64,000 nucleotides of DNA from Termitidicoccus mucosus. Its GTDB lineage: Bacteria > Verrucomicrobiota > Verrucomicrobiia > Opitutales > Opitutaceae. Each line of letters begins with the position of its first letter. Position 1 is the first letter of the stretch. Below are positions 52,651-52,725 of the stretch, in pieces. The notes under the pieces were generated by a model, which worked only from the letters and a program-made list of their open reading frames with translations, ran no database searches and was not told the origin of the DNA. A program made the translations under genes and the position numbers. The DNA lies in NCBI RefSeq assembly GCF_038725785.1, contig NZ_CP109796.1, positions 4,092,001 through 4,156,000 of the forward strand. Reading direction: 5' to 3'.

Positions 52651-52725
52651 CTGTTCCCTGACCGCCGGACTCCACCAGGGATCCAGCAGGAAAATGTAGT
52701 CGGCGGTGTGCAGCGTGATGCCGGT
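52651..52725 (-). pseudogene. Remnant of a SNF2-family helicase gene
   Basis: About 75 bp match 57351-57425 of the SNF2 helicase gene, with some 8 mismatches. The minus-strand translation is [18 protein letters not shown], against [18 protein letters not shown] in the intact gene. Nothing recognisable flanks it. It could derive from the neighbour at 57 kb or from a lost paralogue. Confidence 0.8.

Follow-up and report, generated by a model that had tools for sequence, protein, structure and literature searches.

Results

A short SNF2 sequence located between two TonB-dependent receptor genes of Termitidicoccus mucosus is, on the strength of sequence comparison, probably a non-functional piece of an SNF2 gene that was left behind by a rearrangement of the variable region separating a uroD-like gene from the intact SNF2 gene. 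The features involved are listed below with coordinates of the window, i.e. the whole stretch of 64,000 nucleotides that was analyzed.

50199..52879 (no strand): interval missing from the congener G001, in which the uroD 3’ end is followed by 6 bp and a TBDRb-type leader
50422..52626 (plus strand): TBDRa, the smaller TonB-dependent receptor, with a Plug domain; best relatives found are 46-51% identical
52650..52725 (minus strand): SNF2 fragment, corresponding to about residues 786-811 of the neighbouring gene and far short of a domain
52726..52837 (no strand): 112-bp stretch to the right of the fragment, without significant match elsewhere in the genome
52838..53003 (plus strand): AT-rich leader of TBDRb, common to a paralogous receptor (89% over about 174 bp, including the first codons)
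53004..56849 (plus strand): TBDRb, the large TonB-dependent receptor, with a Plug domain; a 96% identical receptor adjoins SNF2 in G001
56850..57104 (no strand): TBDRb-SNF2 spacer with two dispersed repeat stretches (56907-56993 and about 57028-57086); no matching spacer in G001
57105..59780 (minus strand): intact SNF2-family helicase gene with PF00176 and PF00271; the ORF as listed extends to 59903
57350..57425 (minus strand): segment within the intact SNF2 gene that matches the fragment, found by repeat search and by whole-genome search

Identity and extent of the fragment

In the repeat search, positions 52650-52725 and 57350-57425 were aligned in the same orientation over 76 nt, with 68/76 bases identical (89%) and a spacing of 4700. 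The first-pass annotation had reported about 8 mismatches in the same orientation, and the codon-aligned 75 bases indeed differ at 8 positions from 57351-57425. When a 121-base query (52640-52760) was searched against the whole genome (7.92 Mb, or 7,922,482 bases, in 2 contigs), it matched itself and the adjacent SNF2 gene with an E value of 1.9e-22, which rules out a chance similarity; the next best among the 32 matches listed had an E value of 0.037. The minus-strand reading of the fragment yields 25 residues that can be aligned with the SNF2 gene product, although the homology is to a part of the gene only (76 of about 2676 bp), and the PF00176 and PF00271 domains, complete in the neighbour at 57105-59780, are not contained in the fragment (about 26 residues). 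Its earlier description as an SNF2 helicase remnant is thereby borne out, the homologous sequence lying in the interior of the neighbouring SNF2 gene. A search of a plasmid collection returned no match.

The fragment starts 24 bases past the stop codon of TBDRa. Homology beyond its two edges is not significant, as scores equal to or above the observed ones were obtained with 11% and 18% of 2000 single-base shuffles. A leftward extension to about 52618, which had been suggested by eye, was rejected by this shuffle test, and a longer protein match (residues 736-811, 39% identity, one stop) is unsupported on its right side by the same test at the DNA level.

Parent gene, substitutions and age

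Closer SNF2 paralogues were sought in the same genome, as the first-pass annotation had proposed, and none was found. Two further SNF2-like loci were retrieved by protein search, one at about 134-135 kb (39-59% identity, depending on the stretch) and one at 7.076 Mb (27%). The gene at about 134 kb is 78% identical to the parent region in SNF2 over 163 bp, and it was rejected as the parent as it agrees with the fragment at just 52/76 bases, versus 68/76 for the neighbouring gene.

Individual sites were compared across 34 chosen loci, consisting of two congeners, which were kept apart, and 32 outside rows derived from 25 genomes (seven genomes being represented twice); five named rows (L039-L042 and L044) were placed outside the genus from their 39-59% SNF2 identity. 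At site 31, located in an Ile codon, the fragment and the three SNF2 genes of the genus all carry A, as opposed to G in 32/32 outside rows. Sites 56, 67 and 68 are invariant in 32/32 outside rows and are changed in the fragment, all three changes being nonsynonymous. Considering that the fragment shares the genus state at site 31 and departs at three invariant sites, its sequence points to derivation from an SNF2 gene of the genus, followed by changes at conserved residues and by what was probably a loss of constraint. Within the fragment-matching segment, the SNF2 gene of this genome differs from that of G001 by two synonymous changes and from that of G002 by none, while the fragment and the SNF2 gene of the window show 8 differences, 5 of which are nonsynonymous. 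The corresponding NG86 estimates (dN 0.073 and dS 0.28), obtained from few sites with 8 changes in 75 bases, would allow some past constraint, and neutrality is unprovable from so few changes.

Two codons of the fragment, GAT and AGT (the latter one step from AAT), carry a third-base T that is present in 19 and 14 of the 32 outside rows, respectively. Since these third-base states are common outside the genus, the parent may have been an older or sister-lineage SNF2 gene rather than the present neighbouring copy. The 8 differences in 75 bases are of the same order as the dS between congeners (0.10-0.30 over four genes), and the fragment would thus be roughly as old as the species of the genus, with a wide error. 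Among the 80 loci listed in a contig search, the best SNF2 relative is 59% identical (the closest named one being an uncultured Opitutaceae bacterium), and no junction of TBDRa, fragment and TBDRb was seen at close range.

The locus in two congeners

The region was compared with two congeners, both represented by incomplete MAGs (G001, 68%; G002, 72%). With all candidates scored, neither of these 2/2 incomplete genomes contains a copy of the fragment besides its own SNF2 gene, and in G001 the junction itself is seen without it, so that the remnant appears lineage-specific in this comparison. On contig C384 of G001, a heparinase-like gene and an araC-type gene are accompanied by a 194-bp match to the uroD-like gene end plus spacer, the uroD gene being truncated on its 5’ side. 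A TBDRb-type leader follows 6 bp after the match to the uroD end, without the sequence at 50199-52879, which comprises TBDRa, the fragment and 154 bp more. On a second G001 contig, C174, a receptor whose protein is 96% identical to TBDRb adjoins SNF2; as C384 ends after 42 matched receptor codons, we only infer that both contigs carry the same receptor.

The arrangement in G002 is araC, then a 94% identical uroD, then a sialidase-like (BNR) gene, and the SNF2 gene is followed by an ORF resembling ResIII/DEAD helicases; the sequence seen past uroD and past SNF2 contains neither receptor. Around SNF2, both congeners are similar at the DNA level from 57104 to 59854, with internal gaps, and no further, and an HprK-like gene beside SNF2 was not seen in the contig of either. 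The neighbourhood of uroD and SNF2 differs in each of the three genomes, which agrees with the first-pass annotation in that the fragment does border a segment whose content varies among three species of the genus. Its suggestion that relatives be compared for presence or absence of the large receptor led to a variable segment, but G001 points to the TBDRa side and has a 96% identical TBDRb-like receptor. The arrival of the large receptor beside SNF2 may have been a separate event, considering that it is lacking from the stretches seen in G002.

The stretch at 52726-52837 was likewise not matched in the two congeners, nor in 150 genomes of the family (4 candidates scored per genome). The leader from 52838 onwards is shared with a paralogue, and the TBDRb unit therefore begins 112 bp to the right of the fragment.

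Mosaic structure and leader motif of the large receptor

When 52838-56845 was compared with the paralogous receptor L122, identity was 84.5% in the leader and the 5’-most ~980 bp of the gene and about 68% from 54530 on. This drop indicates a mosaic, which suggests gene conversion of the 5’ part. An alignment of 8 receptor leaders yielded the motif TCTKACTGTAAYRWTT-N7-CTRG, located at 52891-52917 in the window and likely to represent a promoter or 5’-UTR element. A search that tolerated up to 2 mismatches gave 4 occurrences in this genome, 3 in G001 and 2 in G002, all of them exact, while a reversed-pattern control gave a single match, in G002. Eight of the nine sites are the leaders that were used to define the motif, which therefore appears confined to one receptor subfamily; the ninth lies in a copied piece on G001 contig C397.

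Short repeats in the surrounding region

A 400-kb sample around the window, equal to about 5% of the genome and covering fragments whose parent lies inside it, was screened by script for two-copy matches of 50-500 bp. Five of the 25 matches listed are at least 85% identical; besides the present fragment, these are two MITE-like sequences with inverted repeats and two others judged repeat-like by eye. Judged in the same manner, the fragment alone among those five looks like a gene piece. An origin as a MITE or IS element is not supported, as the fragment query has just two good matches in the genome (the fragment and the SNF2 gene), lacks terminal inverted repeats (its first and last 12 bases agree, when inverted, at 3/12 positions) and is not flanked by an exact target duplication of 3-12 bp.

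Other elements were observed in the same region. At 37941-38127, a MITE-like element (about 187 bp, internal inverted repeats) overlaps the 5’ end of the minus-strand ORF 36773-38113; the genome contains two more copies of it that are nearly full-length (96-97%), along with many partial copies. An element of 164 bp with 23-bp terminal inverted repeats is present twice in the 400-kb sample, at positions 4090721-4090884 and 4278943-4279106 of contig C1, the two copies being 97.6% identical. A dispersed repeat of about 130 bp occurs at 20105-20232, 36599-36724 and 62781-62910; the copies at 20105 and 36599 are self-complementary and share 96% identity, and the one at 62781 has about 80% identity with each of them.

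On contig C397 of G001, positions 7225-7374 hold a 150-bp copy (98.7%) of the junction between the uroD end and the receptor leader, which forms an in-frame fusion with the end of another ORF; this contig ends about 100 bp past the copy, so that a misassembly is possible. That pieces of nearby gene ends, about 75-150 bp long, are repeatedly copied into rearrangement junctions in this genus is a speculative and improbable proposition; under it, the SNF2 fragment would be one case and the C397 copy a possible second.

Discussion

The reading preferred here, a rearrangement scar, would comprise a rearrangement by which the TBDRa segment was introduced or remade and the SNF2 piece was copied or left behind; this piece would have drifted since, without function. 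Candidate routes for the copying are a partial duplication and a subsequent deletion, recombination with DNA carrying part of SNF2, and filler produced by template-switched repair. The three versions considered below are routes to such a scar and not alternatives to it.

In the first version, which can be put forward tentatively, the fragment would be the last trace of a larger direct duplication of a unit of ~4.7 kb reaching from the TBDRb leader into SNF2, arising either as a tandem duplication or when a circle integrated, and all but 76 bp of the left copy would later have been lost or replaced by TBDRa. The same orientation and the 4700-bp spacing, with TBDRb in between, fit a unit of about 52726-57425, and the pair of TBDRb and SNF2 is present in G001 too. 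This version calls for at least one large later loss, and the SNF2 3’ end (residues 812-891) has left no trace to the left of the fragment, where similarity beyond the match is at chance level.

A second version, possible but not favoured, is that the joining of a broken end at the junction of TBDRa and TBDRb involved a short templated filler, for which SNF2, at a distance of 4.7 kb, served as the template. A single event of this kind would yield a short internal piece, the absence of the gene end and two sharp edges; the right-hand stretch 52726-52837, however, has no match from which the microhomology at the junction could be judged.

Rather doubtful is the third version, according to which TBDRa and the fragment would have been acquired together from a related species carrying TBDRa beside its own SNF2 gene. 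It would account for the lack of a close TBDRa relative in the two congeners and in 150 genomes of the family (best 46-51%; 7 candidates scored per genome) and for the position of the fragment 24 bases after the TBDRa stop codon, and the GAT and AGT codons permit a parent from a sister lineage. No pairing of TBDRa with SNF2 was seen among the genomes searched (7 candidates scored per genome), however, and the SNF2 3’ end is missing for this version as well.

As an alternative to a scar of these kinds, the first-pass annotation had suggested that the fragment may mark a recombination or insertion border of a 4.3-kb lower-GC block, taken here as the arrival of TBDRb as foreign DNA. The fragment does end 112 bp before the leader common to TBDRb paralogues, no TBDRb lies beside SNF2 in G002, and the block 52726-57104 has 55.4% GC as compared to 65.9% for the whole window. 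However, the GC content of TBDRb (56.1%) falls within the range of three paralogues from the same genome (52.1-58.8%) and is 55.0% in the G001 counterpart, so that the low GC reflects the receptor family and is no sign of a foreign block. Furthermore, a 96% identical receptor adjoins SNF2 in G001, and the gap in G001 extends from the left of TBDRa into the TBDRb leader. An insertion border of this kind is considered improbable.

Retention of the fragment as a terminator, regulatory RNA or recombination site is hardly credible: beyond its survival nothing was found that speaks for a function, promoter- or terminator-like sites were not detected in 52400-53200, no Rfam family is present in the window at the gathering threshold, the predicted fold is ordinary (z -1.31) and the fragment was not found in the congeners.

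The fragment has the appearance of a common rearrangement scar rather than of a working element. Taken alone it matters little, and its relevance is that it marks a rearrangement-prone uroD-like/SNF2 stretch in a genome rich in TonB-dependent receptors; if short templated copies were indeed frequent in the genus, the locus would constitute a natural record of junction repair.

Two known kinds of sequence come closest to it. Templated or filler insertions occur at repair junctions, and the fragment likewise consists of ~76 bp that derive from DNA close by and lie at the border of a rearrangement, although a comparison of microhomology would require the ancestral junction. Remnants of bacterial genes arise by partial duplication and deletion, and the fragment is likewise a short, apparently drifting partial copy of a gene that is still intact, located at a junction that varies between species. 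From such remnants it shows no essential difference, and it is readily recognized because its parent is present in intact form at a distance of 4.7 kb.
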